From the NCBI GenBank assembly GCA_027922465.2, contig BQMF02000283.1, forward strand, positions 248,001 through 312,000: DNA of 64,000 bases, in the 5' to 3' direction. The position numbers were made by a program, and so were the translations under genes. Shown here piece by piece: positions 40,321-60,843 of the stretch. Under the pieces are notes generated by a model, which saw only the letters and a list, made by a program, of their open reading frames with translations, searched no databases and was not told the origin of the DNA. Position 1 is the first letter of the stretch. The number at the start of each line of letters is the position of its first letter. The stretch comes from Turritopsis dohrnii. Lineage: Eukaryota; Cnidaria; Hydrozoa; Anthoathecata; Oceaniidae.

Positions 40321-40660
40321 CACTGCATGAAATACCCGAGAGTACGACAGTATAATCTAGCGGATATTGTCGTATACGTACACGTATGCGTTAGTATACA
40401 TCAGTATGCGATCTAGCCGTACCCGACAGTATACATGTCGTATATGTACTTTTTAAGCACGACAGTATACGACCGTCGCATACCCAGCGTATACAACTAG
40501 CGTATACGGTGCCATACGGCTGGATACTTTTGGATTCTGTCGCGCACTCAGTACATACTCCTATGGTATACTTCGTTATACGCATATATATTGTCGTATT
40601 CTGAATGCGTATAGTATCGTATACATGAAGCGTATATCGTATATATTCTCCGTGGTAACC
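40321..40660. repeat. Left subterminal GTATAC array of the CACTG element
   Basis: Eight exact GTATAC words plus many one-base variants (GTATGC, GCATAC, GTATAT) lie in about 310 bases, in changing spacing. In DNA of this composition far fewer than one exact copy would be expected by chance. This resembles subterminal binding-site arrays of CACTA elements. Confidence 0.75.
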
Positions 40661-41312
40661 GAATTTGCTCTTAGAACACTGGTGTAACAAACTCCTTTTC
40701 TTTTAACAATACACATCCATTTCTCAGAAATATGTATTTATTTCCTTCATTATTTTGTAATTTTTAATATATAAATTCAACTATATATATCAATAAATAA
40801 ATAAATTTACAATTAAATAAATAAACATAGACTATATAATAATAATATTATTGTGTTCAATTAAAACTTCTTTCTTGAAGGTTTAACAACATTTTTGGTA
40901 TTGCAAAGTAAATTCAAAGAAAAGCCTGGTGCTACGAATGCTTTCTTGTAACAACTAATTTTCAACCCGGATACACCTTTCCCAAATTTCTGATTAAATG
41001 CCGAGTTAATGCTTAGTTATCAAGTTTAGCCTCGTCTCTATGTCTTTCATTGTTTTTCTAATTTCAAAATGTTTTCAGCAAGTAATAGTTATTTGTTCTT
41101 TCAGTTCTTCAGTGGAATAATTAGAAGTAATTAAGAGTATGAAAAAGAGGGGAAATTAGAGGCCAGGCTATAACACGGCGTTTAAACAGAATTCGGGAAA
41201 GGTCTGTTGGTGAAATAGAAACACGCCATGACAAAAGTTCTTAAAAAATAGACTATATTGACTAAAACATAGAGAACTTTTTGTTTAAACTTTGAACTGT
41301 AAATAATAATGT

Positions 41313-42480
41313 CTAATCGTCTTCCTCTTCCAAATTCTCTTCGGTAACAAAGTCATTAATGAATTGTGGCTTTATCAAATTCACCGGCACTTTGCTACTT
41401 GGCCCACGTGATGTATGCTCCCCGTATATATACGTTACATTCCGAGCACGATCACTTTCCCGACACAATTCTGTGACCGCGTCGACTCTCCACAAAACCG
41501 ATCTTTTAACTTTGTTGCCATATCCATCCTCTTCGCTGTCGCTCATTAATTCGGCAGGTATATGGCTCCACACCTCCGAATCGCCAAATTTGCTACGTGC
41601 GTTCTTCAACTAACAAAACATGTTAAAAAGAAAAAATATTAGTATACCCTTTTTCGTGTAAACCACCAAAGAGAAAAGTTGTAATAGTAAAATAATAACT
41701 TACTCTGTGCCTAGCGGAATTTTTCCTTTTTTCTTCTTTTATTTGGTCGTAGTTGTCATCCAGTTTGTCTTTCTCTGATCGTGACAGAGTCTGGAAGTAT
41801 CTGCGACAGGCTTCTGTATAAATTGATATAATTGTGTTATTAGTTTTTCAGATCAACAGTATTGTTATTATAGATTTGAACACGAATTATCAGCCCAACA
41901 TTTAACATTCCTCTGTAAAGATAGATGATGGAATACAGCGATTTTGAACTCAAAAATGGTTAAGGTGTCATACTTCGAATAGTTGGCAAAGGGAAGTCGG
42001 ACGAGTCAGGAAACTTGTCTTTTATCATCGTGACGATATTATTAGTCACGGAAATGTTATGGGTCGAATTAAATCTAAGACACAAAAGACATGATCATAT
42101 ATTTTTATGGTACACAATATCGTAACATTGGCACATATGTTTGGCTGACACACTTTTTCCAGAAATTACCACCAACCTTTCTCCATCTAATTTCCACTGA
42201 CTATCCTCATCAATGGCTTTATAAGCGTCGTGAATCATTTGCTATGTATGAATTTAAATTCTTGAGTACAGATTTTAAAAAGCAACTAAAAAACAAATTG
42301 GGAATAAATTGCGGCATTACATACAGAAAGTTCAACAGGCAAAGTTTCTTGTCTGGATGTGTTGTTGTTATTGGCAGATCTAACGTCATCTAATGCTGCT
42401 GCCAACTCATCTACCATGGCCTGCTGCTTCTCTAAAGTACGCTGCAGTGTGTCTAACTTCTTATTAAACTGGTCACTCAT
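41313..42480 (-). CDS. Accessory protein of the CACTG element, 5 exons, complete
   Basis: Exons (minus strand): 42480-42325, 42241-42177, 42074-41974, 41813-41704, 41609-41313. All junctions are GT-AG and in phase, giving 242 residues. An acceptor (tttttcag) 15 bases before the ATG implies a 5' UTR intron. The N-terminus MSDQFNKKLDTLQRTLEKQQ is a coiled coil. The middle (MIHDAYKAIDED, then ACRRYFQTLSRSEKDK and a KEEKRKN basic patch) looks DNA-binding. The C-terminus has KRSVLWRVDAVTELCRESD and an acidic tail EENLEEEDD. I do not recognise a named domain. The ACRRYF and VLWR patterns recall the second ORF of animal EnSpm elements, so I infer a terminal-repeat-binding partner of the transposase (TNPA-like role). 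Confidence 0.65.
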
Positions 42481-43118
42481 GTTGACTATTGCTCTGAAAA
42501 ATACAGTCAAGAATACAAACAATAAACAAAAAGAAACGACACTTTTATCTTTTTATCCTTTTATCCTTTAAGTCAGCGAAAATAAAAAGAATTAGAACCG
42601 AGAAGATATTCTTTATCTCTACTACTTGTTACCATTTCATTCTAATTGTCCCATTTGTGAGTTTGTGATTGAACTTTTCTCGTTCATTTGGAAATTGCTT
42701 TTGATCAGTCCGTAAGGGCTTTAACAGAAATTTCAAAAAGGTACGAAACGAAATACATAAGTAAACCAATAAATGGTCTTTATTCAACATCACCATTTAC
42801 AATTTAAATTAGCCTAAGAAAATATCGAATACATAAAAGGCCTTAGTAGTGGATACAGAGCAAAGCCAAACTTTGTGGAGTAATCCAAAATTATTTTTAG
42901 GACAGAAAAAAAGAACGAGCACTGAATACTTGTGAGAGTGAAAGGGAAATTACAAGGTTCGACTGGGCGTACTATGTTGCTTAAAAAAGAATTAAGCAGT
43001 AATGCAAAAATGAATAAACGGTGTTCCATGACCATAATGTTAACATGTAGCAGAACTGTGAACTATTACGATAAAAACTAAACAATTGATTAAATAATTA
43101 AACAAAATCAAATGGCTG

Positions 43119-46100
43119 TTAATTCTTTTCAAGTTCTTTTTCCAAGAATTCAATAGCGGTTTTCAAAGTGTATCTTTTGGCAGTTTCAATAGCTTTCATT
43201 TTTCTTCCTAACTCAAACAACATCTCAATCTTTTCATAGTGACCGATGTATTTTAACAGGTAACCAAGAGAATAAGTGTCAGTTGCAAAAGATTGCTTCG
43301 ACCCTGGCACATTCCTCAATTCATGGGCAAGATATCTATGTCGTTTATTGTAGATCTTCTTTGATTCTTCAGACAAATTGTAGACTACAGGCATTTTTAT
43401 CATCGTAGCTTTTCCAAAATCTATAACTTTGGGGATATTTTGGCATGTCAACAGCACATTGTTTGCTTTAATATCATTATGGAGGATTGATAAACTGTGC
43501 ATATAATTAATTGCTTGACAGATCTGATGACAAATGAATTTCCATACTTGAGGAGATATATGTTGCTTCCCCATTTCTCTTTGGACTGTTCGAACAACTG
43601 CACTTTCAAAACCATTTTTCCCGCCGATCAATTGGTAGGCTATTTGGTTGGGTTTTATGAATCCATAACAATAAGGGAAATTTGGGTGTCCACTGAGTGC
43701 ATGAGAAACCTTAACTTCAGCCAAAATGTCCACTGGCTTACTAAATTCCATAGAAACAAACTTGATAGCAAGTAAATCATTCGTAATGTGAGGTATTTTT
43801 CCAAGTTTAACAGTACCAAATGTGCCTTCACCTAGCTTAGTGTCTATCATTTTCACAGAAGACGACTGTATGTTGCAAGGAAAAGAAGGCAAGAACATTG
43901 ACAGTTCAGTTTTACATTTCCCAGTTGCTTTTCCAATCAAATATCCTGTGTTACAAGTGAATAATTTGGAGGTAGCTGACATTTTCCCTACTCTTTGACT
44001 TGATTTATTAGCTAAAATTTTGGTTTGTAGCAAAGTTGATTTTCGCTTTTCATTGTCATTGGAGTTGCAATTTATCAAGACCTAAAGACAATGACTAGCT
44101 GATGTTCTGTTTTTTGTCTTTGAACACTTTATTACATGCAGAACTTTTAATATAGCCTAAGTTATTATAAACAATACTGGTTCAATAAATAAATTCTGAA
44201 ATCATAACACCCTTGTCACTATAAATCCCAAGTCAATCAAAAAATCAAAATTTAGATGCCATTTTCACAAGTGAAATCATTGCAGGGAGAAAAAGATATC
44301 ATAATTTTAACTAAACAGAAAGCCAACTTATCTTGGTCTAACCAACACATGAAACAAATTTATTGCTGATAGAAAAAGTATTCTTTTGTAACTTGATTTT
44401 AAAAACTAACAAAGTATCAGACAACATACCTCAGTATCTGATTCTCTTGTGGCATATTCAATGCTTCTGGATGATTGTTCGGTGTAAAAATTCTGAAATA
44501 GGTAGAAAAAAAAACAATCAGATCAATTTGCCTATTAAATGCTTAAATTGATTCCAAGCAAGGTTTGATGAGTTTGATGTAATTATTAGGGTTAACTTAG
44601 ATTGCTTATTACAAATTGGCAATTTGTTAATATATACACATTTAGTATTAAGTAGGCCTACCCAGTATTGGCAGGAGAGTTGTTCACACTTCTCTTTTTT
44701 GGTGGTGGAGGTGTACAAATAGGGCTAAAAGAGTTTGAATCAATCAAATCATCTGAAATGGAACTTACTAAATCTGACTTACATATTGATGATTTCACTA
44801 CCAGGAGGAAAGGATTTTGTATTGACTTAAAGACTTCCCATCCTGAAATGTTTTGAGTTTTTCAGAATGTTTTGGGCCCAAAAAACATCAGGTAATATCC
44901 TTAATTGATCCTATTCCTGAACGAACAATTTCAAGCCAAATCAGAAGAACTATTTCTTTTCAGAATTTTATTCACAAATTCTATCAACAATAAATCTTAT
45001 TTCAATAAGAAAATCACTAATTTGGTAAGAAATTGACAGAAAGCATAATGATACTAATTCATGTAATAAAATACCCTGTTCCTTGATTAAGAGAACATGC
45101 TCTATCTTTATTGGTGGGTGATACGAAACTAAATCTATGAAGTCAGAAAATTGTTACATTATACAATCCTTATAATGTACTTGCAGATAGTGATTATATA
45201 TGACTTACTTAGTGGCACCAGTAACATTCAATGTGTTGGGAGAAGCATGTAGATGAAGCAATCTACAAATTTATAATCAAATCAAGTCACTTAGTAAAAA
45301 TTTGTTAACAAAACTTTTGAATTGCTACTTGAGAGTTGCACAAAATTAACTTCATACAATAATACATAAAGCCATATTTATGTAACACTAAAAGAAAATG
45401 CTTTGAAAGGTATTGACAGAACTATATATGTTTTTTTTTATAAATTTGCATTTTGTTATAAAACACCTGTTCTGGTTTGTATACCTACATAAAATCATTT
45501 TCAGAGTATAATACTGCAGTTTATACTTTTTTGCATTGTTACCTATATACTTCATTATATATAATATTCAGTCAGAAATTACATTCTTTACATTTCAATT
45601 TCTCTTTGTCATCATTTTGAAAACCTAACGAAACCTGCACTTGGAAAGAATATATCCTTAATATATATAACCTACATATTTTTGAAACAATTGAGAATTT
45701 TTTCGACTTGGCACTAATGCACCTGGTCTAGAACTGTCTTTAGCACATAATGCGCCTAGATTAGTTCAAATTCACAAATTGTATTCCAAATATAATACGT
45801 TATATATACACCAACATTTTCTTAATATAAAGGGTACTTTCAAAGAATTAAGCAGTCCTGTTTTCCATTTTACTTTGATTGTTACATCTCTTAAATATGT
45901 GAGCAAACAACTATAATGCAAAAAGTATCACAGTAAAAAGGATAATCTTTTGAAAAAAAATCTAAGCACTTAAAATGATGAATATAATAGCTTTCATGAA
46001 ACTAATTATGAAGGCATATTCTACAAAAAGGCATGAAAAAAAGAATTTTACCCCCGAAGTTGATCATTTGACGCAGCAAAAGTACTTTCTTCATCTCTTG

Positions 46101-46671
46101 GAGATGGTTGGGCACAAGAAGAACTAGCAGTAGAAGTCCTGTGTAAGAAAAGGAAATAAATATTGAAATAAAAACAACAACAAAAACTAAGCTTTCAAAT
46201 CTTTTTCTTTTTTTTTTTTAAAAAAAAAGTATTATATTTAATAGAATATAACTAAAATAGCTTCTGCAAAATAGAAACTTTGTTAAAGCTGCTATAAACG
46301 ACATGCCATAACTAGTACGAGCAACAACGTCGTTTCTTAGTTTTGATAATGTTGATAATGAGAAAGATAATGTTGTTCCTCTTGTGTGTGTCGACCGAAA
46401 AATGAAAACTCTTGTTTACAAAATGAACTACCATTTCTAACTACGTTCAGCGCGAAATTCAATTTTTAAAATTTTTTTATAAACAGCTTTGTTATCTCCC
46501 CAATACCGTGTGATTGTCTCCAATTGCCGAAAAATCTACATGATCAAACCATTTCCTGATTTATTCTTTGCTTGTTTAACGTACCATAAAACAAACATCT
46601 TACCTTGCTGAATGATCATTCCCCTGATTTTTCGCAAACTTGCGTCGAACAATGGTAAATTTCTCGGCCAT
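43119..46671 (-). CDS. Protein kinase gene carried by the CACTG element, multi-exon
   Basis: Exon 1 is 46671-46604 (MAEKFTIVRRKFAKNQG). Then 46138-46052, 45262-45209, 45134-45075, 44724-44662 and 44492-44430 encode a Ser/Thr/Pro-rich leader (SSSCAQPSPRDEESTF, CTPPPPKKRSVNNSPANTG). All five internal junctions are phase 2 and join cleanly. The last exon, 44081-43119, holds the whole kinase domain: LGEGTFGTVKLG, LAIKF Lys, ILHNDIKANNVLL (HND for the usual HRD; catalytic Asp kept), VIDFGKAT and YLAHELRN. Catalytic residues are present, so activity is plausible. The join from exon 6 (phase 2) to the kinase exon (open in phase 0) does not fit. Either a small exon was missed, or there is a frameshift, or translation starts inside the last exon. 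Substrate unknown. Confidence 0.68.
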
Positions 46672-47420
46672 TTCAGAAAAAGTATAGCAGATGATGACAG
46701 ACACTTGTAATTTCAGTAGGTTAACAGGCAAGTGATGGGACAAGGGGAAAAAAGGACTACGTACTGACTAAGAGTTCGAAATGTTCGCGCCAATTACATA
46801 CAAAGGAGGTCATAAAAAAGAGGCTTAACAAAAATCTACAGTTAATAACGATAGGTATATACATAAAAATTATCCTCATCAAGTAAACGGGCAAAAACAT
46901 GACGGAATGAGTACAAACTTTATTCATTGCAAGAGATATTCTACAAATATAATGGTTAATACAAAAGAAAAACACCCCCGTTTTTGGGAAAGAAATATAT
47001 TGGACATTCCAAACCTTTCGGACTAGCGTACACGTTAATATACATACGTATACGTCAGTATACCCACGTATACGTTCAGATACGCAAGTATGCGGTATAT
47101 GACATTTCCCGCGCTTAAACTTTGAGCCGGGGGAGGATTAACTAAATTTGCATGCAATATGTGTAAAGTAAAAACTGAATATCGTGTTTATGATTCTGAC
47201 AATTAGCAGTAGTTTTATTAGAAAACATGAAAAGAATGTCTGATGAAAAAAACCATTATTATAAAAATTCCAACAGAAGTAAAACCAGAACACCTAAACT
47301 CCTATATAGCGTCTGGGTTTGTGAAAAACAACTAAAGAAAGTATACATAAATATACGCCCATACACGACAAAAAAAAATTATAAAGTTTTCATAAAGTTG
47401 AATCTCAGTTTCATTAGAAA
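46672..47420. promoter_or_regulatory. Bidirectional promoter region with central GTATAC cluster
   Basis: It separates the divergent starts of the kinase (46671, -) and the transposase (47421, +). At 47020-47105 it contains three exact GTATAC words and close variants (GTACAC, ATATAC, AGATACG, GTATGC), spaced about 11-14 bases apart. The same motif fills both ends of the element. A transposase or accessory protein that binds the ends could therefore also control both genes. Motif is seen; function is inferred. Confidence 0.6.
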
Positions 47421-50400
47421 ATGAATAAATTAGTTCAGCAAAAAAGAAAAAGAAAATTTTGTCCACATTGTCAAGAAAACATTTCACACTCTGCCTTTTA
47501 TGAACACAAGAAATTATTTTATAAGAATGGATGGTCCAAGCACTCAGAAGATTATAAAGAGACAAGAGAAGGTCAGTATGCTTTCATACAAACCTTCACA
47601 AGCCCTTGGCTACAGGTTGTTATTTAACTAATGAATAATGAATTATAAAACTATATATAACTTGGTCAGGAGTTGCATGCTTGTGAATCTTTTAATCGCA
47701 ATATTCCATAATACCTAGATAAAAATTAAGTAAAATTTTATTAACATCTGGATAAGTTTAGAGATTGGATTTCCAGTAGACCAAAAACTTCAGAGGGCCG
47801 ATATAAACTAAATTCATTACTAACACAATGGATATAGATGGATATTAACATAATAGATATACATTTTTAGTATCTCCAAAATTTTTGCTCAGTTGAACGT
47901 AAACTATATCACAAAACTATTTCAGGTGTAGTCCTCATTATAACAATGTGTTAATTTGACTTAATATGGAAACACAATACACCATAATAAATCCAAATAC
48001 ATTAAAACTATTATATATATAATACTACTTTAGAACTTTAGGAATACTACTTTAGATTTTGGCTGACAAATTCTAAGAAGCAGTAATTGTCTATCACAAT
48101 ATCACAAAAACTAAGTAAATGCCTTCATACCAACTGTTTGAAAAACTGAAAAGGGGAAATTTATTTTCATTGATGTATTTATATTCAGAGTTGTTTTAAA
48201 ACCTTATTGAAGGATTATACTGCTGATTTTATAGTCCTAAATAACTGAAATAAAAGTGAGAAGAACAGTTGTACTTACCATAAAATTCAAATTGTTTATC
48301 ATCTAAAAACAAATGAAAACAGCAGTTCAATACAGTCTAATATTTCAACTTTTGCTAGTCTTTATCAAGTGTAAAAAAACACTACAGACAAGGAGTATTT
48401 ATATAGTGTAACATAACTTCTAACATAATGGAAATTAACAAGAGAGTTACAAAAATTAAACTAAGATAAAAAGAAAGTAGTTAGTAAGTACAAAAGAGTG
48501 CGAGTAAAATGTACAGTGGTTAAAACATGTGCTAAAAATAAAAATAAAACAACGCATCATTAAAATAATTTTGAAATTTTAAAATGTACAACTAAAAGGA
48601 AACTCATAAAAGCATTTTATAAAAAATAATTACAAGGTTATTTATAATTTAAAAGATCACAGCAGTGGTAGAAAATTAGTTAAAGATAAAAAAGAATTCC
48701 ATTGATGCAGTTGGTTTAAAACGTTAAAGAGCACACTTATAGCCTCTCCTCTCTAAAGGCGATAAGACATAAAGGAAAACACGTTAAGCTATAAACAATA
48801 TACAATAGAGAATACTCTAGGTATATATACTCAGTGACATTTACAAGTATTTTGAGAAAAAAGGTCAAATTTTTAAGATCATGAAACAAAATAGTTGTCA
48901 ATTACAAATGGGCCAGATAAATAAGCAAAACCTTCACTTAAGTGAAGTGAAGTGAAGTGATTTATTTCCTAAAATAAGGAAGGAGATCACCCCAAAGCTA
49001 TAGCTAAACCCAAGAGGTTTTTAAAAATTTAAATGCTCAAATAACAATAAAATAAAATAAATAAATAAATAATTAAAACAATTACCATGATATATATTAA
49101 ATAAATATATATTAAAACTTGAAAGTCTTGAAAGTTAAATAAATATATATATCTATATATATTTTTACTTAAGAATACGACATTCATCTATATATAATTT
49201 AACTTTCAATACTTTCATTAGCTAGTTCATGTATATATAAGAGTTTAAAAAGGTATAGAGGAGTTTCTTAGTGACGTAATGTTTATAAACACCAGTGTTC
49301 TTTGCTCGATAATTACGGTATATTGCAACATAGAATATCATTAATCAAGTCATTTTCCTGTGAGTATGCGCACGCAGCCTCGCAGGAAATAAAAGTCTCT
49401 TTATAAATATATATACACTTCAAAATGTTGTCTAGAAAGTTTCAATACACATTAGCACTTCCTATCTATTTTCGTACATTGTATTTGATTTTTAGTATGT
49501 ACAAGGTATAAAAATTTAATTAACATTGGAAACTCGTCTATATATATAGTGGTTAGTGGAGGTTAGTTTTGATAAGGAAATGCTAGCAAGGTATGCATTT
49601 GGGGTAGTTTGCTGAAGGGAATTCACTGCTGGATTGAAAGGTGAGGAGGCCATGAAGAAGTTTGAAGAAGTTTCATAAACCAGACAGAAAAAACCCAACA
49701 AATATGTGCTAACAACAATTCCATGAAAACATAGAAACACTTTTTTCAGAATGATATACTTCACACATATAAAAGTATTTATACTAACTTTGGATCCTCT
49801 TATTTTGAATTCTTTCTTACAACCATTTTCAGAATAAAATATAAACAAACTAAAATTTAAATTTAAACTTGATCTTCTCTTCTGGGCCAAAAAAGTGACC
49901 TTATGATTAGATTTGATACACAATATATCTATTTTCTTGTTTAAAATATTTAATTCTCTAAAATACAATCTAATATAATTAAAAAAGTTGTTGTATTTCT
50001 TTTTTACAAAAAAGACGTTACATGATAATAAAAAAATCTTTTTAACACAAACAGCAGATGTTCGCCACAAAGCCTCCCTGTTCAGATAAAAGAATATTAC
50101 AAAATGTTCATATATATTTCATATACATATATAAACAAACAACAATCGATTAAATTTTAAAAAACAGAGAAGCATAAGTAAATTTCTCACACTGTTATTT
50201 TAAGCAACAGTCAGACCTCACAATGTTCGCCATTATTAAATCCATGTGTTTCGCGTAATCAGAACAAAGTTGGGCGTACATAAACAAAAAACGCCCCATT
50301 TATCTGATTTTTAACTCATTCGCTGTCGGAAGCCACGTGTGGTACAACAACGCGATGAAAATAACGCAAAAAATGAATAAATAAAGCTAACTAGCCGGGT

Positions 50401-53400
50401 TTTTATAAATTGTATTTGTTAATTTTGTTTACATGAAAAATGTAAGTTAAATCAGTCAATGAGAGTTAAAACTGAATTCTTACTTAAATTAACTGTTCTA
50501 TTCAATACTTCAATAGAAAAGTATTTATACAGAAAAATGTTTTTAGAACGAAGCTGACATCTTGTTTTCTTTTATTTGATTCTACGAAATTAGCTCAAGA
50601 AAACGAGACCAGTGATCTGCTGCCGGCTCGTGATGAAGATTTTTGTATGAACGGAAATAACAACATGTCAATTTGTTATGATGACGATCATGATCACGAT
50701 GATGACGAGTTTGACGATGATGATGATGATTGCGATAAAAGTTCTGAAGATGAAAACAATGACACAGTAAGGATTAAAGCATAAATATTTGTTGATAAAC
50801 GAATAAATTTGTCATATTTCATATTCATCATATTTAGATGTTTGATAACGATCTGAATGCCGATTCAGATGTTGATGTGTTAGATAGTGATATTGATGTT
50901 AGTATCGATGATGATAATGAGCAGGAAGATGAAGTGTTTGATAATGCTACAGCATGTGATCACAGAATTTCCACAATTATTTCTACAACAGTTCGTGCGC
51001 TGTTCCTGATTCAAACGAATTTGTTCATATCAGATGCTTGTCTGGAATACATTCTTGGACTTGTTAGACTCGTTTTATTTCTGATTTCAAAGGCAATTTC
51101 AAATGAATTTATTTCAAATTTGTATATCGCATTTCCGGTTTCAATATATAAAGCAAGGAAATTTTGCCGGATAAATCGAGACGCATTTACGAATTTTGTT
51201 GTTTGTAGCTCATGCCACTCTTTGTATGAACTAAAGGACTGTTTTGAGCGAATGAGAGATGGAAAATTGGTTAGCAAACACTGCACATTTGTTCAGTTCC
51301 CCAACCATACGCAGTTGCCACGTCGAAAACCATGTGGAAACGTCCTCCTCAAATCAGTGATATCTAAGAAAAGGGATAACATTAACTTGCATCCAATGAA
51401 AAGTTATCCCTATCAACACTTATCAAATGCCTTGGAGGAGTTGCTTTTCAAACCAGGATTTTTAGATCTACTTTTGTCAGACAGTGTGAACGGAAACCTC
51501 GACAGAATGTTTGATATTACTGACGGCAATGTTTGGAAAAACTTCAAAGATGATTCTGGACAGTGCTACTTCAATGACAAACGTAATCTGGGTGTTTTAT
51601 TGAATGTAGATTGGTTCAACCCGTATGAAAACTCCGAATATTCACTTGGCGTCATATATATGACCATAGCAAATTACCACGAGAATATCGCTTTTTATGG
51701 GAAAATACCATAGTCATAGGGATAATTCCAGGTCCGAAAGAACCGCCATTACACATCAATACGTATCTTAAACCATTCGTTGATGAAATGTTAGAGTTTT
51801 GGCATGGGAAAGTAGTTAGGGAACCAAGTCCGATTGGGTTTGGGATGTATAAAATCGCAGTGATTGGTGTATCCAACGATTTGCCGGCGACCCGAAAATT
51901 TTGTGGATTTCTGAGCTTCAATGCGAAAAGAGGTATTCTTCATTTATCTATTTTGTCACAATAGTTTTCGTTAGCTATACATAGAATTTATAAGGAAATT
52001 GTCAAAACCCACTTTACAAAATATGTGTTCTCTTAACAAAAGTCATTCTTTTTAGGTTGCAGCAAGTGTTTTACTAAATTTACTCGCCTTGATAATGTCA
52101 CAAATTACTCGGGATATGACTATCAAAACTGGGAGATGAGAGAATATGAACAACATAAGACTCTTGCTTATCAAACATTGACTGCCAGAACAGCTAAAGA
52201 ACGCCAAGAAATGGAATCCGAATGGGGAGTAAGATACAGCGAGTTGCTTCGTCTTCCATATTTCGACCCGGTTAGAATGCATACCGTGGATCCCATGCAT
52301 AATCTTTTTCTTGGTAATAATTCTCATTTCCGTTGTCAATATTCGTTGTTCAAAACACGACATTCTAACGTCTTGTATTTAATCAATCAGGTGCTTAATC
52401 TTTATAATAGTTGATGCTAAACTATAAAATAATAGACGAATAATTGATATTAAAGGTACCGCAAAACACGTGCTCGTGCGATGGATAGAAGAAGATATCC
52501 TATCAGACGTTAAACTGGTGAAAATCAATGAGCGAATAGAAGAATTGAAAGTTCCTCGTGATATTGGTCGAGTACCAGGTATTAATAAAGTATATTCATC
52601 TTACCAATGTTTTTATGTATGAGGTAACTACATTGTTGCTTACAAACGTTTTAGGCAAAATATCTGAACACTATAAACGGATGAAGGCAGATGAATGGAA
52701 AAATTGGGTGTTAATCTATTCGTCGTATTGTCTTCAAGGAATTTTACGCCCGCGTCATTTTCTTATTTGGTCGATGTTTGTTTCTGCATGCAAGTTACTT
52801 TGTCAACGTTCTATTTCTATAAACGAAATAGAACAAGCTCACCAACTTTTAAAGATGTTTTGCATAAGTTTTGAAGAAGAAATGGGTAAGAGAAATTGCA
52901 CCCCGAATATGCACATGCACTTACACCTTCGAGATTGTTTGATGGATTATGGGCCAGTATACAGTTTTTGGTGCTTTAGCTGGGAACGTTTTAATGGCAT
53001 TTTGGGATCGTATACTTTGAATAATCATGATATCGGTGTTCAGTATATGCGCAAATACTTGACTGGCAGTCAAACAAGAAACAAGATGCTACTTGAAGAT
53101 GACATCCTCAAATTCATACGTCTCAAAAATGACCAGCGTACGATGTCGATAAAAAACATCAGTAGTTTATGTCGAGGCCAGCAGCCCATTACATCGGCAG
53201 AATTAGAGTTTGATGAAACTCAAGTAGTTTTGAAAGTTTCAAAAGGCTTTGCAGCATTGTCTGATATAGATTTTGGCCATTTGGAGGTTTTATTAGAGAA
53301 ACTGTACAAACCACTTCAATTTCGGATGTCTCGAAGTGTTACAGAAATTAAAAAGATCTGTCTTGGCAACGAAACATTGTCTTCTAATGAATACAAACAG

Positions 53401-53769
53401 GGTTTCAGACACGGTACCTGCGTAAAAGCAAGGTGGATTGGCAAAGACATCGACCTGTCATCTGCAATTATACGACCAGCAATAATTACGAACATGTATG
53501 AATTAAAACTGTTTTCTGCTGGTTCCTCTTCAGTAATGATCGTTGCGAGAGTGAAATGGTTTCGAGCACACCTTAAAAAGAATTTTTACGGACAGAATTC
53601 ACCAACGTTAATTTGGAATACGATCTACGAAGACTATGGTATCACAGAATTCCTACCTTTGAAACTTATATTGGGAAGATGCGTCTACATCACTAAATTG
53701 TTGAAATTTAGCCAATTTGAAAGTGACAATGTTAATATCGTTATTTCTCTGCCCTCCAAGTCAATGTGA
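47421..53769 (+). CDS. Tnp2-type (CACTA/EnSpm) transposase, 6 exons, one-base deletion
   Basis: Exons 47421-47571, 50594-50766, 50838-51932, 52056-52313, 52456-52578, 52655-53769; about 971 residues once exon 3 is allowed a single missing base. Exon 1 has a zinc-finger-like KFCPHC...FYEHK. Exon 2 and early exon 3 are very acidic (DDDHDHDDDEFDDDDDD). The transposase core follows: NVDWFNPY, GPKEPPLHINTYLKPFVDE, TVDPMHNLFLGTAKH and CFSWERFNGILG, which supply candidate D, D and E catalytic residues of the Tnp2 family. Near 51677 the frame breaks in what should be I-A-N-L-P-R-E: AATTACC stands where AATTTACC is needed. Exon 3 is 1095 bases, one short of what its phases require. All other junctions are in phase. 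It excises and moves elements with CACTG ends. Confidence 0.85.
47572..50593 (+). other. Transposase intron 1
   Basis: A 3-kb AT-rich intron with a short (AAGTG)n tract at about 48936-48960 and TA-rich runs near 49140-49180. A 184-codon minus-strand frame at 50070-49516 has no recognisable domain and low-complexity composition; I do not call it a gene. Confidence 0.6.
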
Positions 53770-54009
53770 ATCATTTTAGATACCGTTAAAGTAAGGGTCA
53801 GAACTAACAAATTTGATTACGGATGTTTATGTTCCAATTAATAATGCTTTGTATTTGTGATATTTGTTCTACATTTTGCTTCTTGTATTTTCATTATTTA
53901 TCTACCCTAGAGAAAATAATAAATACAAATGCATTCGACAGTACAAACTTCTTCGTGACAAAGGTTTTTAATGTTAGGGCCTTTGTAAACTCCATAAGGG
54001 TTAAGAGAA

Positions 54010-55525
54010 AACTTCAACCAAAATACATAGAATTCTAAACATCCTTATCAGGTTCAATGGGCTTCTGCGGATTAAGGAACACAAAAATGGGGCAAAATGG
54101 ATAACTTCAACCAAAATACATAGAATTCTAAACATCTTTTTCAGGTTAAATGGACTTCTGCGGATTAAGGAACACAAAAATGGGGCAAAATGGATAACTT
54201 CAACCAAAATACATAGAATTTTAAACATCTTTATCAGGTTCAATGGACTTCCTGCGGATTAAGGAACACAAAAATGGGGCAAAATGGATAACTTCAACCA
54301 AAATACATAGAATTCTAAACATCCTTATCAGGTTCAATGGACTTCTGCGGATTAAGGAACACAAAAATGGGGCAAAATGGATAACTTCAACCAAAATAAC
54401 TAGAATTCTAAACATCTTTTTCAGGTTAAATGGACTTCTGCGGATTAAGGAACACAAAAATGGGGCAAAATGGATAACTTCAACCAAAATACATAGAATT
54501 CTAAACATCTTTATCAGGTTCAATGGACTTCTGCGGATTAAGGAACACAAAAATGGGGCAAAATGGATAACTTCAACCAAAATACATAGAATTTTAAACA
54601 TCTTTTTCAGGTTCAATGGACTTCTGCGGATTAAGGAACACAAAAATGGGGCAAAATGGATAACTTCAACCAAAATACATAGAATTTTAAACATCTTTAT
54701 CAGGTTCAATGGACTTCTGCGGATTAAGGAACACAAAAATGGGGCAAAATGGATAACTTCAACCAAAATACCTAGAATTCTAAACATCCTTATCAGGTTC
54801 AATGGACTTCTGCGGATTAAGGAACACAAAAATGGGGCAAAATGGATAACTTCAACCAAAATACATAGAATTCTAAACATCCTTATCAGGTTCAATGGAC
54901 TTCTGAGAATTAAGGAACACAAAAATGGGGCAAAATGGATAACTTCAACCAAAATACATAGAATTTTAAACATCTTTATCAGGTTCAATGGACTTCTGCG
55001 GATTAAGGAACACAAAAATGGGGCAAAATGGATAACTTCAACCAAAATACCTAGAATTCTAAACATCTTTTTCAGGTTCAATGGACTTCTGCGGATTAAG
55101 GAACACAAAAATGGGGCAAAATGGATAACTTCAACCAAAATACATAGAATTCTAAACATCCTTATCAGGTTCAATGGACTTCTGCGGATTAAGGAACACA
55201 AAAATGGGGCAAAATGGATAACTTCAACCAAAATACATAGAATTCTAAACATCCTTATCAGGTTCAATGGACTTCTGAGAATTAAGGAACACAAAAATGG
55301 GGCAAAATGGATAACTTCAACCAAAATACATAGAATTGTAACCATCTTCATCAGGTTCAATGGACTTCTGCGGATTAAGGAACACAAAAATGGGGCAAAA
55401 TGGATAACTTCAACCAAAATACATAGAATTCTAAACATCTTTTTCAGGTTCAATGGACTTCTGCGGATTAAGGAACACAAAAATGGGGCAAAATGGATAA
55501 TTTCAACCAAAATACATAGAATTCT
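54010..55525. repeat. 93-bp tandem array, about 16 copies, open on both strands
   Basis: The period is 93 bases (31 codons): AACTTCAACCAAAATACATA, then a CATC(C/T)TT(A/T)TCAGGTT block, a GGACTTCTGCGGATTAAGG block and CACAAAAATGGGGCAAAATG. Copies differ by a few substitutions. Because 93 is divisible by three and the unit lacks stops in one frame per strand, frames of over 420 codons run in both directions. They are repeat artefacts. One extra C near 54249 shifts the frame. It begins 240 bases after the transposase stop, inside the CACTG element. Confidence 0.9.
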
Positions 55526-55533
55526 TTAATTTA

Positions 55534-58120
55534 GGGGTCAGTCACAAATCGATTTTAGGTTTACTAACGTCATAATGACGTTAATGGGTATGTGGGTTAA
55601 TTCAAGTTAAGAAACTTATAAATAGAAACATTGATTTTGAAAGGGATTTGAATGATTTAAACAAAGAATCTTTAGTTCATTTTCTTTCAAGATTTCTTGA
55701 TTGTGGTAATTCGGGTTATTTTCCATTTTTATTGTCCGGCTTGGCTACGAGTGTATGTTGTTGTTGTTGTATTTCCGAAATATGACGTTATGAGTGTTGG
55801 GTGCAGGGGCGGATTTAGGATTTTTTTTGACTGGTGTAAATGTCAACTTAATTGACTTAGTCGTATTGGGGGCGTTTGGAGCCACCCAAATAGTCCAAAG
55901 CCCTTTGTGCATTAATATGAACTGTAACAGGCCCAAACACTATTGTTTCCTCCCATGTGGTTGTGGTACATTGACAGTATATACAAAGCAACTGAAAGAA
56001 GTGAAATAGTGAAAATACATCCAGAAGATCAAAAAATTTCAAATTGTAAACATAAAAGGTAAAAACAGAGATTAACATTGGTCATAAGCATCAAGTAGGA
56101 CTAAATTTAAAATTTTCAATTTCAACTTATTACATACATTATGAAATACCAAGCTTTCTGCTATAATAACTAATTGATCAGGAAACCAGTCCATTTATTA
56201 AAAAATGCTCAAAGGAGCTGGGTGTCTGTCAATCATTTAGGCATTACAGAACCTATTTTATTTCTGAATGTTAAATAATGCATGTGTGATGTAACAAATT
56301 GACACAGTGCAACACAGTTAGATATTCTGCAGTCTCCCACAAAAAATTATGATTATAACATAAGGAATTGACTCCTACATTTTTATAAGAAGCAATGGAA
56401 GCTTATCAAAACAGAGACTTGAATAAAGAGAAGGAGAGCTGTTTGTCTGATTTGTGGCAAAAAGATAATATGAATTGAATGAACAAAAATTATAATACAT
56501 TTCTAATAAAGATAATGCATGAACTGTTATGAGGGCTGACAGAAAACATAATTTAACAGTTTTCTTAATGGAAATTGTTTCTTTGAGAGTTCCTTAGCGA
56601 TTGTGATGTTTGTCAACTGCTCAATGAGGGTTCTCACTGACATCAGTAATCTGCAACCCTCAGCTCAGCTTATAATAGTTCATAATCATCTTTAAGTTAC
56701 ACAAAAAAGATCACTACAGTCCCAGAATTACCACTGCACTGTGAGTACTCCTACAAGTTTGTTTGTGTATATATACATCTAATGCTATGAATTGCCAGTC
56801 CATAATGTTTTCAAAACAATCAAGTTCAGCAACTGAGATGTGATCAATCATGATAGTAAAGAAGCTAAAAAAAATAATAAAAAATAAATTATATATAATA
56901 CAACCAAATTAGAAAATAGGAAAATAAACAAAAAAAAAATCTGTTTACAAACCCACCTCACTACGGTAAAGATTTCATTATATATAATAAAAATTCAGGC
57001 TGATGCTAATGTTTCTCCTTCATTTCAAAACTGATTATCAGCTAGCTGGTTAAGTGGTTTTCGAATGGGTAGTTTCATGTTTCAATGTAGGTACAAGTCA
57101 AAAGGAAGTGGAACAATCCATAATACATAAAACGCTACAAAGCAGCAGATCTAGAAAAAAAGGCTTAGCTATTAATAAAGTAATTCACTTTTAGTTTCTT
57201 CTCACTATCACACTAAACGTTTTGTAAACAAAAAGCTAGAAAACTTTTCTTACCAGTAAAGAATAATACAAAACCATTTAACTTATTGTATATCATTTTG
57301 AAATAGTTCACAATAACATTTAGAGGTTCTGCATACATGCTATCTTTCAGCATAAACGTGGAATAAAAAAGACATGTGGAGACTTACCGTGATAAAAAAA
57401 CTTGGAAGTAAACAACATAAAAAAATGCTGAGTTTCATATAACTAATATTATTTTTGTACATACATTTTCTTGAATTAAACTTCCCAAAGCAAGAAATAT
57501 GATGCAAGATGTCTATTGAACAACCAGTCTTCAGTTTTGGCATCTCTTCTTCCAACTTTGCAGCATTTTCACGCTGCCATGATAGAACTGGGCTTTCGTT
57601 TGCTTTCGCTAGAGGGTATATAATTATCTAGATCGGCATGCCGTACACTTTTCTATTTACACCAGTCGAGCTTACACCAGTCAGACGCATCTCAAAACTT
57701 CCCCTAGAACTCTGCATCTTTACACCACTCGAGTGGTGTAAAAAGCAATACCGGCAACCGACCTACTGAACGTGTATTTTCCGAAGCGGCACCCCGTTTC
57801 ATACTTGCTATGCGGGCCAAATATTTCAAAAATAAAATTATCGACCGAAACAAATTCCGTGAAGGCGAAAAATATCGCAGCAGCGCAATTCGAAAACAGT
57901 ATTTCACAGTTAGGAAAGAAAAAAGGAAGTGTCAGATTAAAAACTGTATTAACTGAAGGAATAATAATTCCATACTTTAGGTTCAATTAAATGACCGAAT
58001 TTCACTGGTGTAAGTACACCAGTACACCAGCCTAAATCCGCCCCTGGGGTGGGGGTAGGGTACTATTCGTAATGTCATTATGACGTTATTTGAACCTAAA
58101 ATCGATTTGTGACTGACCCC
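55534..58120. mobile_element. TIR element with TA target, split by a second element
   Basis: 28 bases starting GGGGTCAGTCACAAATCG are identical in inverted orientation at both ends, followed by a near-palindromic AACGTCATAATGACGTT. TA flanks both ends (55532-55533, 58121-58122), so a Tc1/mariner-like target is likely. Without the inner insertion it would be a MITE of about 340 bp. It inserted at the edge of the 93-bp array. Confidence 0.75.
55804..58046. mobile_element. Nested element with CAGGGGCGGATTTAGG ends, 2.2 kb
   Basis: CAGGGGCGGATTTAGG at 55804 is inverted at 58031-58046, and GGGTG directly flanks both ends (55799-55803 and 58047-58051), giving a 5-bp duplication. ACTGGTGTAA / TTACACCAGT words lie inside both ends and again near 57658-57740. 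CAGGGGCGGA ends are common in animal hAT elements, which normally make 8-bp duplications, so the superfamily is unsure. No transposase ORF is seen; the 60-90-codon ORFs look like chance. Confidence 0.7.
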
Positions 58121-58779
58121 TACAGACGGTTGGAATGATGTTTTGATCCTTGTCTGTAATAACGAAGGCTGTCCGTAATAATTAGGAACATAGACAGTAT
58201 TTACTTTACTATTGAACTTACTAAAAAAAGTGGGTTGAAATGGATAACATCAAGTTACATCATGAAGTTCTGAGCCTTTTATTAACCACAAAACTTGGGT
58301 AAAATGTAAATGTACCGTTCTTCAGCAAGTAGAAAGTAAAATGAAAAAAAGTGTGACATTACGTAAAGCAGTTAGTTATAAATAACTAAGGATCCAACCA
58401 GCAGAGTTCGCCATACATACTTTTTTTCATACACAAGGCCTGTAGAAAAACTCGTTGTTGAACACACATCATTCTTTTTGAACGCACGAGAGACTTCACA
58501 CTTTTACCTTCCTCCTCACAGAACCATGTTCTTTCAATACAATATTGTAATGTAAACAAGATCTTTTTCTGTTATTTTGCATGAAGCAAGTAAAGAACAA
58601 CAACAAATCCCATCCATCCATCACACATGCAAAATTGAAACTACCATATTTTTCTTGAATTCATTGGTGTAAAAAACAGAACGAAATGCGAGATGAAATT
58701 TACAGGTGAGATTTAATGGGGAAGTTATAGAGAAATGTGCAAATTTTTCAATTCGGAAGCTAGTCATTAGGCTTCTTCG

Positions 58780-58968
58780 CTCCATTCATACGCTCACGAT
58801 ATACAACATCGTATATTGGACCATACGCATACGTAACAAAATATACAACTGTGTACCACAGTATACGGCGATGAAACTAAATTTAACCGTATGGCATCGC
58901 ATACTGCCGTACACTATTGAATATCACGACATCGCATACTATGGTATTCCCGCACATTTTATGCAGTG
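58780..58968. repeat. Right subterminal GTATAC-like array of the CACTG element
   Basis: ATATAC, GTATAT, GCATAC, GTACAC and one exact GTATAC occur about every 10-20 bases up to the terminal ...TTTTATGCAGTG. The array is more decayed than the left one but has the same words and the same position relative to its CACTG end. Confidence 0.65.
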
Positions 58969-59189: not shown

Positions 59190-59851
59190 TTAATGTTTAC
59201 ATTTTTGTACGCTTGTGCGATGCATGCGCACAAGATGGCAGGAATAAAAACAAGCTTGAGAGAGATGCGGTGAGAGCATTATGTGTGTGTTTTCACAATA
59301 TTGCTTCAGTTCTTCGTTGCTGAAATTCATTACTTGATACTCAAATAAGCTGTTTAGTGGCTCTGGGATAAAAGTTGAATCATCCCCATCTGCTGTGTCT
59401 CTGGCACTTGTGTCATAGTCACCGTTTGCTTCATCAAATAAAGTTGTACTTGTAAGCACAGCAGCTTCTAGAGCTATAACCTTTAGTTGTTCTAATTTCT
59501 CTTGAAAAATATGAAGCAGCTTCTTTGAGGGATCTACTGCACTGAAAGGTCTCAAAGGTTTATCCGTTTGTGGCGCAAGGTCATCTTTCTTTGCCTGTCC
59601 AAATTTTTTTTGCAACCAAGGGTACAGGATTTGCATGCTTTCAAGATTTTTTCCATTAAGAATCTCATAACTAACATCTTCTACGTGTCCACATACAAAG
59701 AAATTATAACCTTCTAAGGACTTGTACGCTTTAAGAGATTGCTGTGTGAAACTGCTGGGTGTGTTGATCAGGTAGTGGTACATGTCGATCCAAGTTACAT
59801 CTGATGGCAATCTAACGTCAAATCCCCAACAATCCAACAATGAAAACGAAT
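59190..59851 (-). pseudogene. SWIM/YqaJ-type transposon-associated protein, one exon
   Basis: The frame opens after the acceptor actgtcag at about 59852 with WISNSFSLLDCWGFDVRLPS. It continues DVTWIDMYHYLIN, QQSLKAYKSLEGYNFFVCGH, a charged middle and ELKQYCENTHIM. The LKAYKSLEGYNFF-x-GHV block recalls the N-terminal part of cnidarian SWIM-zinc-finger/YqaJ-nuclease proteins found in mobile elements. The last 25 codons (SPHLSQACFYSCH onward) do not fit and are probably read-through into an intron. Neither the SWIM finger nor the nuclease domain is in the window. It lies just outside the right end of the CACTG element. Confidence 0.5.
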
Positions 59852-60429
59852 TAGATATCCATCTGACAGTCTTAATTTGTTTTGATATTGCTTTTTATCT
59901 TCACTATCTAATCTCATAAAATAATCTGACATACATACTTCACATGGTTCATACAAAAGTTTTTATTTTTTTAATTTTTTTTACAAAGAAAATATTTATC
60001 AAAATTCTTTCTTTTTGATGTTGACAAGTTCTTAAGAGAATTCCATATTGTATGTAAAGTTGCCGACGGCAATTATCCTTAAAGGAGAATTAACGTCAAA
60101 AAAAATGGTTGTTAAATTTGATAAATTTCATTTCCAATAAAACGGTTAGGACAAATCAACCTAGAGTGACAATTTCCGGGGTTTTCTTTGATTCTGTGAA
60201 AAAGGCATTACAAGAAATTCAATGTAATAAATATGAATGATGAAATTTTTCTTGCTTGGCCTCCGAAGTCGCTTAAAAGAATGATAGAAGTATAATGATT
60301 TTCTTTTTTAAAATGTTTGTAACTTTTTTATTCTGTTTTAAGATCATTTATGGCTTCATTACTCATTTTGTGCGCAAAAAGTTTTTTGATTAATGCACGT
60401 TTTACATCATCAATTGTTAGTTCCTTTGA
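59852..60429. other. Gene-free stretch
   Basis: AT-rich sequence with no exon that I can support, presumably intron or intergenic DNA between decayed mobile genes. Confidence 0.4.
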
Positions 60430-60843
60430 AGTCCATTGTGTAGAAGAGAAAGACAGAGTAAATCCAAGCGCCAAGCCGTACAACATTCTCGGCAAGTCAT
60501 TGTTATCCTGAGGGATAGCAGCAAAAAGACTTTCGACTTCAACAACCTTTTTGATCGAAAATGTCTATGTGATTATTGGTTGATTAACTTCGAATCAATA
60601 CGTACTGCCGGTACAGTGAAGAGTTACCTTCACTCATTGAGATTTTTCTACCGGTTCATTCAAGCGGAACAGCCGACTGAACTGCTTAATTTCGAAGCTA
60701 AACTTGCTGGTGTCATCGTTGTAATAGATGACTGGATATCTATTTATCACCAGAAACAATCAAAAATGAAATGGAAAAACGAAATGCGCCAGTTAAAACA
60801 AATCCTTGAAGCTTTGTCCAGACATAGGTGGATCATTAAATAA
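60430..60843 (+). pseudogene. Tyrosine-recombinase-like (SAM-like N-domain) fragment
   Basis: About 135 codons without an ATG at the front: TFDFNNLFDRKCLCDYWLIN, TAGTVKSYLHSLRFFYRFIQ, then KWKNEMRQLKQILEALSRHR and a stop. GTVKSYLHSLRFFYRFI looks like the core-binding helices of Crypton-type or phage-like tyrosine recombinases encoded by animal transposons. No catalytic Arg/His/Tyr segment follows in any frame. The TCCATTGTG start follows a weak acceptor (cctttgaag). Confidence 0.42.

Follow-up and report, generated by a model that had tools for sequence, protein, structure and literature searches.

A protein kinase gene carried by CACTG-ended CACTA/EnSpm elements in the genome of the hydrozoan Turritopsis dohrnii

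We analysed a stretch of 64,000 nucleotides from Turritopsis dohrnii (C283:248001-312000, here called the window) and used its parts to search the assembly of this species, which consists of 891 contigs and 435,911,712 bases; all genome-wide match counts given here are lower bounds. The window contains a transposon of the CACTA/EnSpm type, a copy of what we call family A. Between its ends lie a Tnp2 transposase gene, an accessory gene and a protein kinase gene (Table 1).

Table 1. Features of the family A element in the window (positions are those of the window).
Feature	Position	Strand	Remarks
Whole CACTA-type element (CACTG-ended CACTA/EnSpm, Tnp2), family A copy	40321..58968	.	18,648 bp; ends common to copies at other loci
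Left end: CACTGCATG terminus and GTATAC-type subterminal array	40321..40660	+	40 genome matches to the left-end query; enriched hexamers CGTATA/GTATAC
Accessory gene, five predicted exons, the last DUF4616-like	41313..42482	-	Exon translations; conserved in family B; homologous to accessory exons of families D and E
Main kinase exon, about 180 bp short at its upstream end here	43119..44081	-	Pkinase E 2e-25; 376-aa frame in C672, C615 and C472
Upstream kinase exons (uncertain; predicted ATG at 46671)	44420..46671	-	Splice motifs judged by eye; family B conserves blocks 45701-45768 and 46592-46802
Region between the divergent genes (promoter), holding a GTATAC array phased at 10 bp (~47028-47093)	46673..47420	.	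Array conserved in family B
Tnp2 transposase gene	47421..53769	+	Exons from 47421-47571 (first) to 52657-53769 (last); reading frame disrupted near 51,674
93-bp tandem array, 16.3 copies	54010..55525	.	Also in other family A copies
Nested insertion, 30-bp perfect inverted repeats	55532..58122	.	A second insertion (55804-58046; 16-bp inverted repeats) lies within it
Right end: subterminal array and ATGCAGTG terminus	58740..58968	-	28 genome matches to the right-end query

Both element ends carry CACTGCAT, at 40321 on the plus strand and at 58961-58968 on the minus strand. Taken alone this 8-mer is not significant: it occurs four times in the window against a mean of 1.67 in shuffled sequences, and 10 of 100 shuffles hold four or more. 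The edges are instead backed by other copies, which start exactly at 40321 and stop at 58968. GTATAC is found 28 times in the window, compared with a shuffle mean of 9.7, and none of 100 shuffles reaches this number. A degenerate form of the motif clusters at both ends and between the kinase and the transposase. The CACTG ends with GTATAC arrays that an earlier, sequence-only reading of this DNA had described are thus both present. CACT-type terminal inverted repeats are also seen in other families (CACTGCAT in the family E element of C47, CACTGC in family B), and subterminal repeat arrays are a CACTA/EnSpm trait.

The same reading had placed a Tnp2 transposase, an accessory gene and a kinase inside the element, and all three are confirmed. 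The kinase has a clear Pkinase match and the accessory gene has several exons. In the window, with its broken frame, Tnp2 (PF02992) reaches 15.8 bits, below the cut-off of 28.6, and six family A copies at other loci score above it, with 47.9-55.9 bits. Also as described, the kinase on the minus strand diverges from the transposase on the plus strand, and the predicted first ATGs are about 750 bp apart.

The window copy is a damaged member of its family. Compared with other copies the main kinase exon has lost its upstream end, apparently including the splice acceptor. Set against three other copies, which all bear lesions themselves, the transposase reading frame is disrupted, and the right part of the element contains nested insertions. 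No target duplication surrounds this copy, as the flanks, CCA and CTG, differ.

The 93-bp array varies in length among copies, with 16.3 units in the window and about 4.4 kb in C615, and in C472 and C672 it reaches the contig end. The outer nested insertion, whose 30-bp repeats begin with TAGGGGTCAGTCACAAATCG, is at least partly present in C615. The inner one has 16-bp perfect inverted repeats, CAGGGGCGGATTTAGG, and its ends resemble those of hAT elements. Two frames to the right of the element, at 59190-59894 (minus strand, 234 aa) and 60430-60843 (plus strand, 137 aa), have no Pfam match.

That ends, arrays and genes form one unit had earlier been proposed from the window alone, and copies elsewhere bear this out. 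When kinase-bearing regions at other loci were compared with the window by blastn, C672, C615 and C472 proved near-identical to it, starting at the CACTG of 40321 and showing 98.1-99.8% identity up to 55525. C615 matches further, to 56858 (the end of the fetched stretch), at 58562-58626 and in the right end at 58740-58966, where the last two bases are absent; its flanks differ from those of the window on both sides. It is collinear with the window over every part read, that is, outside 151001-152700 of its contig. In C461 the kinase, the transposase and both ends are present, the left CACTG being altered. C80 contains an element of 6,680 bp that has both ends and is flanked by a CTA duplication; it has no kinase or transposase match and is therefore read as a deletion derivative.

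Family B comprises seven loci (C106, C122, C200, C24, C297, C441 and C641), whose conserved blocks are about 70-84% identical to the window. The gene order is that of the window, with accessory gene (-) and kinase (-), followed by transposase (+) and right end wherever the contig extends far enough and these parts are undeleted. Perfect 3-bp target duplications flank C200 (ATT) and C641 (TTG), and C106 has none at its ends; the elements measure 16,183 and 16,078 bp. Copy alignment had been proposed as a way to find element edges and target duplications. The edges were found, and 3-bp duplications are present in four of the eight copies read at both ends (C200, C641, C80 and, with TAC, C47); they are absent from C106, C461, C615 and the window copy.

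A kinase at a conserved locus without the transposase or the CACTG ends would speak against a single unit, and this is not what we found. Among the best 20 kinase matches (67-100% identity) 14 have a Tnp2 match within 25 kb. Four of the other six (C441, C297, C557 and C56) adjoin a recognisable element end, and C6, a scattered copy, has a right-end match at a distance of 26 kb. For the last, C691, which has internal stops, neither a Tnp2 match within 25 kb nor an element end was seen.

Genome-wide, the kinase query gave 129 matches and the last transposase exon 115. To count proximity we used 110 and 100 of these, respectively, after removing small fragments and additional pieces from a place already counted. 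More than half of the kinase matches (56 of 110) lie within 25 kb of a Tnp2 match, where about 1.2 would be expected from the 1.1% of the genome that is this close; the matches are not independent, since a single family contributes many copies and C310 enters with two kinase fragments. Only two orientations occur among the 56: 37 pairs are divergent and 19 are tandem with the transposase upstream. Starting from PF02992 instead (140 of 166 matches, second-exon pieces and unlisted matches being left out), 53 have a kinase match within 20 kb, with 33 divergent, 18 tandem, one convergent and one with the kinase upstream. The other 87 have no kinase match within 20 kb.

Recurrence of kinase and transposase between CACTG ends at different loci, which the sequence-only reading named as support, is seen even in families whose kinases are only about 31% alike (A and E). 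In family E, C47 holds a complete element of 10,124 bp (848767-858890) with CACTGCAT ends. Its left edge is common to matches on C71, C830, C109, C15, C113, C770, C478 and C372, and C215, C421 and C124 match the flanking retroelement up to this edge. The C47 element (L038, L040) sits in a reverse-transcriptase ORF (RVT_1 E 2e-21) of that repeated retroelement. Family G has a CACTGCG right end at which matches on C297, C85, C207 and C149 also stop. Guessing the ends of D, E and G from a single copy did not yield a reliable pair; copy comparison defines both E ends and one G end, and those of D are not so defined. Kinase queries from family G and from a nemertean returned largely the same loci.

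The kinase is thus located inside the element ends, multiplies with the element and recurs in many divergent families, and it is almost certainly a structural gene of the element. The earlier reading of a single kinase-bearing element stands, but it understated the case: there are many families, a third conserved gene and two gene orders.

The third gene is the accessory one. Its last exon in the window resembles DUF4616 below the Pfam cut-off, and the family D counterpart is above it (30 against 27 bits). Homology among the accessory genes is further supported by alignment scores of 115 for A and E (maximum of 500 shuffles 44), 81 for A and D (maximum 49) and 65 for D and E (maximum 46). The genome has 82 DUF4616-like matches, of which 31 are within 12 kb of a kinase match (about 0.5 expected), and 29 of these 31 lie downstream of it on the same strand. 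In families A, B and D the order is accessory gene and kinase on one side and transposase on the other (accessory - kinase / transposase). In family E it is kinase - transposase / accessory, the accessory homologue being at the other element end and facing away from the transposase. At seven DUF4616-like matches a transposase match is nearby but no kinase match (C575, C392, C482, C812, C112, C618 and C406, where a kinase match is about 22 kb off). Given these loci and the many Tnp2 matches with no kinase match nearby, the kinase is not needed for this kind of element. The simplest reading is that a divergent two-gene element gained the kinase in two positions, through two gains or through one gain and a move; kinase losses in some elements are possible.

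The resemblance covers the C-terminal part of DUF4616 (L037:6921-7220, L040:1088-1339 and 41316-41609 of the window). We take DUF4616 to be the family of vertebrate C14orf93, and C14orf93 might have descended from such an element.

The kinase itself is of the eukaryotic type, with a Pkinase match above the cut-off and the catalytic Lys, Glu, HxD, Asn and DFG all kept. Across 22 aligned relatives both glycines of the Gly loop, Lys163, Glu178, HND 257-259 (H257-N-D259), Asn264 and DFG 277-279 are invariant, as is ELRN 310-313 near the expected position of the APE motif. HND in place of HRD makes it a non-RD kinase. Between families A and B pS is 0.633 and pN 0.133, giving a dN/dS of 0.105 over 364 codons: the kinase is under purifying selection. 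Its 367-aa frame is open in all nine family B matches. For the transposase exon pS is 0.774, which is saturated, and pN 0.120 (370 codons); the 374-aa exon that corresponds to the broken one of the window is open in all four family B copies examined.

No kinase subfamily stands out as a clear best match. Against solved structures the single sequence is closest to Chk1 and then to other Ser/Thr kinases. The profile is closest to an EGFR entry, BTK and STE20-like kinases, with alignments that stop near DFG. In NCBIfam matches are found only far below the cut-offs, and assignment to one subfamily is not possible from these structure and NCBIfam matches.

Relatives that carry a species name belong to Clytia hemisphaerica, Hydractinia symbiolongicarpus and Lineus longissimus, and weaker ones to anthozoans; most of the listed proteins are unnamed. 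Two metagenome proteins, a kinase (P0018) and a transposase (P0079), are each listed on a contig of 54,185 bases, and trees built from six kinases and from six transposases place each of them next to family D (support 98 and 100). The two may thus belong to one element, which these observations support but do not prove. Protein P0060, from a 3.9-Mb contig, combines a PHD finger with the tail of this kinase family and would be either an error of the gene model or a fusion in the host. The Lineus longissimus gene model P0059 has a C-terminal CxxC/H pattern that recalls the transposase N-terminus, and BLAST gave no support for it, so it was set aside. Among viral contigs 112 pattern matches were found and none was confirmed as a relative. 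Members of the kinase family are publicly listed as host-like hydrozoan kinases, for example under a BTK-like name in Hydractinia, and their occurrence in elements bears on such annotation.

At the ends of families A and B the enriched hexamers are CGTATA and GTATAC; in family E it is ATACGG. Besides the two end clusters, A and B have a third one, between the first exon of the kinase and that of the transposase. Family A has central sites, with at most one mismatch, at 356, 366, 376, 386, 396 and 416 of the intergenic region, three of them exact; family B has exact sites at 237, 247, 257, 267 and 287. Counting all exact sites in the central region, A has four, a number reached by 1 of 2000 resampled sequences, and B has six, reached by 0 of 2000. 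Family E has its motif at the ends and few copies inside, so the central array is established for A and B and not for the tandem families.

It is natural to suppose that one protein might read both the ends and the promoter; in En/Spm the subterminal repeats are bound by TNPA, which also regulates its own activity, according to the available part of PMC2613891. We consider it probable that the elements are three-gene autonomous cut-and-paste units of the CACTA/EnSpm type (Tnp2, DUF4616-like accessory protein and kinase) in which the kinase licenses or limits transposition. The accessory protein or the transposase would bind the CGTATAC-type arrays at both ends and so bring the ends together. 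The same protein would bind the motif between kinase and transposase and thereby set the output of both genes. The target of the kinase would then be the transposase or the accessory protein, or with lower probability a host factor, and phosphorylating it would license or limit transposition. That its targets are the element's own proteins we hold to be slightly short of an even chance. Kinase activity and its substrates, DNA binding by the accessory protein and autoregulation are all postulated from sequence, and from the same evidence we infer a role of the kinase as element regulator. There is a precedent for a kinase that acts on a transposase: in the available part of PMC3902898, PKA regulates the Mos1 transposase, blocking paired-end assembly and nuclear import. 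The case for a universal shared-promoter circuit is weaker, since tandem families have their kinase behind the transposase, at a distance from that promoter.

The kinase could also act on the host, phosphorylating silencing, chromatin or cell-cycle proteins and so opening a window for transposition. It is conserved while its neighbours change order, as expected of a factor acting in trans, and VANDAL elements of plants carry an anti-silencing gene, VANC. In A and B, however, kinase and transposase form a divergent unit that includes an array, an arrangement that indicates dosage control within the element, and we regard action on the host as rather unlikely. Still less can be said for the kinase as passive cargo, a host gene that was captured and does nothing for the element. 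The many Tnp2 matches without a nearby kinase do tell us that elements can live without one, but the low dN/dS between A and B, the invariant catalytic residues, the recurrence in many families with fixed orientation and the open frames of family B largely rule this out and make it very improbable. Finally, the two ends could come from different copies, or the kinase could be a host gene adjoining the element. The missing target duplication of the window copy speaks for this. In general it is ruled out, to the point of being scarcely credible, by the collinear copies, namely by the same order amid different flanks in C615, C461 and family B and by the kinases inside the duplication-flanked C200, C641 and C47.

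A broader proposal, to which we give even odds, is that hydrozoan CACTA elements are an old lineage with a dedicated element-encoded kinase. The gene is flanked by shared promoter and accessory gene in some families and follows the transposase in others. It would have persisted through great divergence because phosphorylating element proteins, or host silencing proteins, would be a working step of transposition. In general, the data suggest that kinase-bearing elements control themselves or their host by phosphorylation. If this is true, there are DNA transposons that carry their own phosphorylation switch. Host kinases are known to modulate transposases, and an element with a kinase of its own under selection could escape, or reprogramme, that control. 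A natural kinase with likely substrates in the same element would offer a way to study the licensing of animal transposition, and the circuit suggested by the phased array between the kinase and transposase genes can be put to the test.

Some DNA transposons carry an extra enzyme, such as a Ulp1-type protease or a TET/JBP dioxygenase, and likewise keep an enzymatic passenger gene; to our knowledge no protein kinase is among them. The closest known systems are the CACTA/EnSpm elements with Tnp2 (maize En/Spm, Antirrhinum Tam1 and soybean Tgmt*), which, as far as the available part of PMC2613891 describes them, share the CACT-type inverted ends, the 3-bp duplication, Tnp2, family-specific subterminal arrays, an accessory gene and sizes up to about 20 kb. 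The jellyfish element differs from them in having a protein kinase as third gene, CACTG rather than CACTA at its ends, a DUF4616-like accessory gene, and an array also in the divergent promoter in the middle of the element. No precedent for a CACTA element with a kinase appeared in the literature searched, which did not extend to Repbase and subscription papers; in the available part of PMC4158355 both mentions of a kinase concern SnRK2, and in that of PMC9835754, on the T. dohrnii genome, the words transposon and kinase do not occur. With Mos1 mariner (available part of PMC3902898) the jellyfish element would share kinase control of transposition; there the kinase is the PKA of the host, whereas here it is encoded by the element and its substrate is a presumed one. 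Because ends, duplication, transposase and arrays all fit, the jellyfish element is a CACTA element, and the kinase as its third gene is the part without a precedent in the literature searched.
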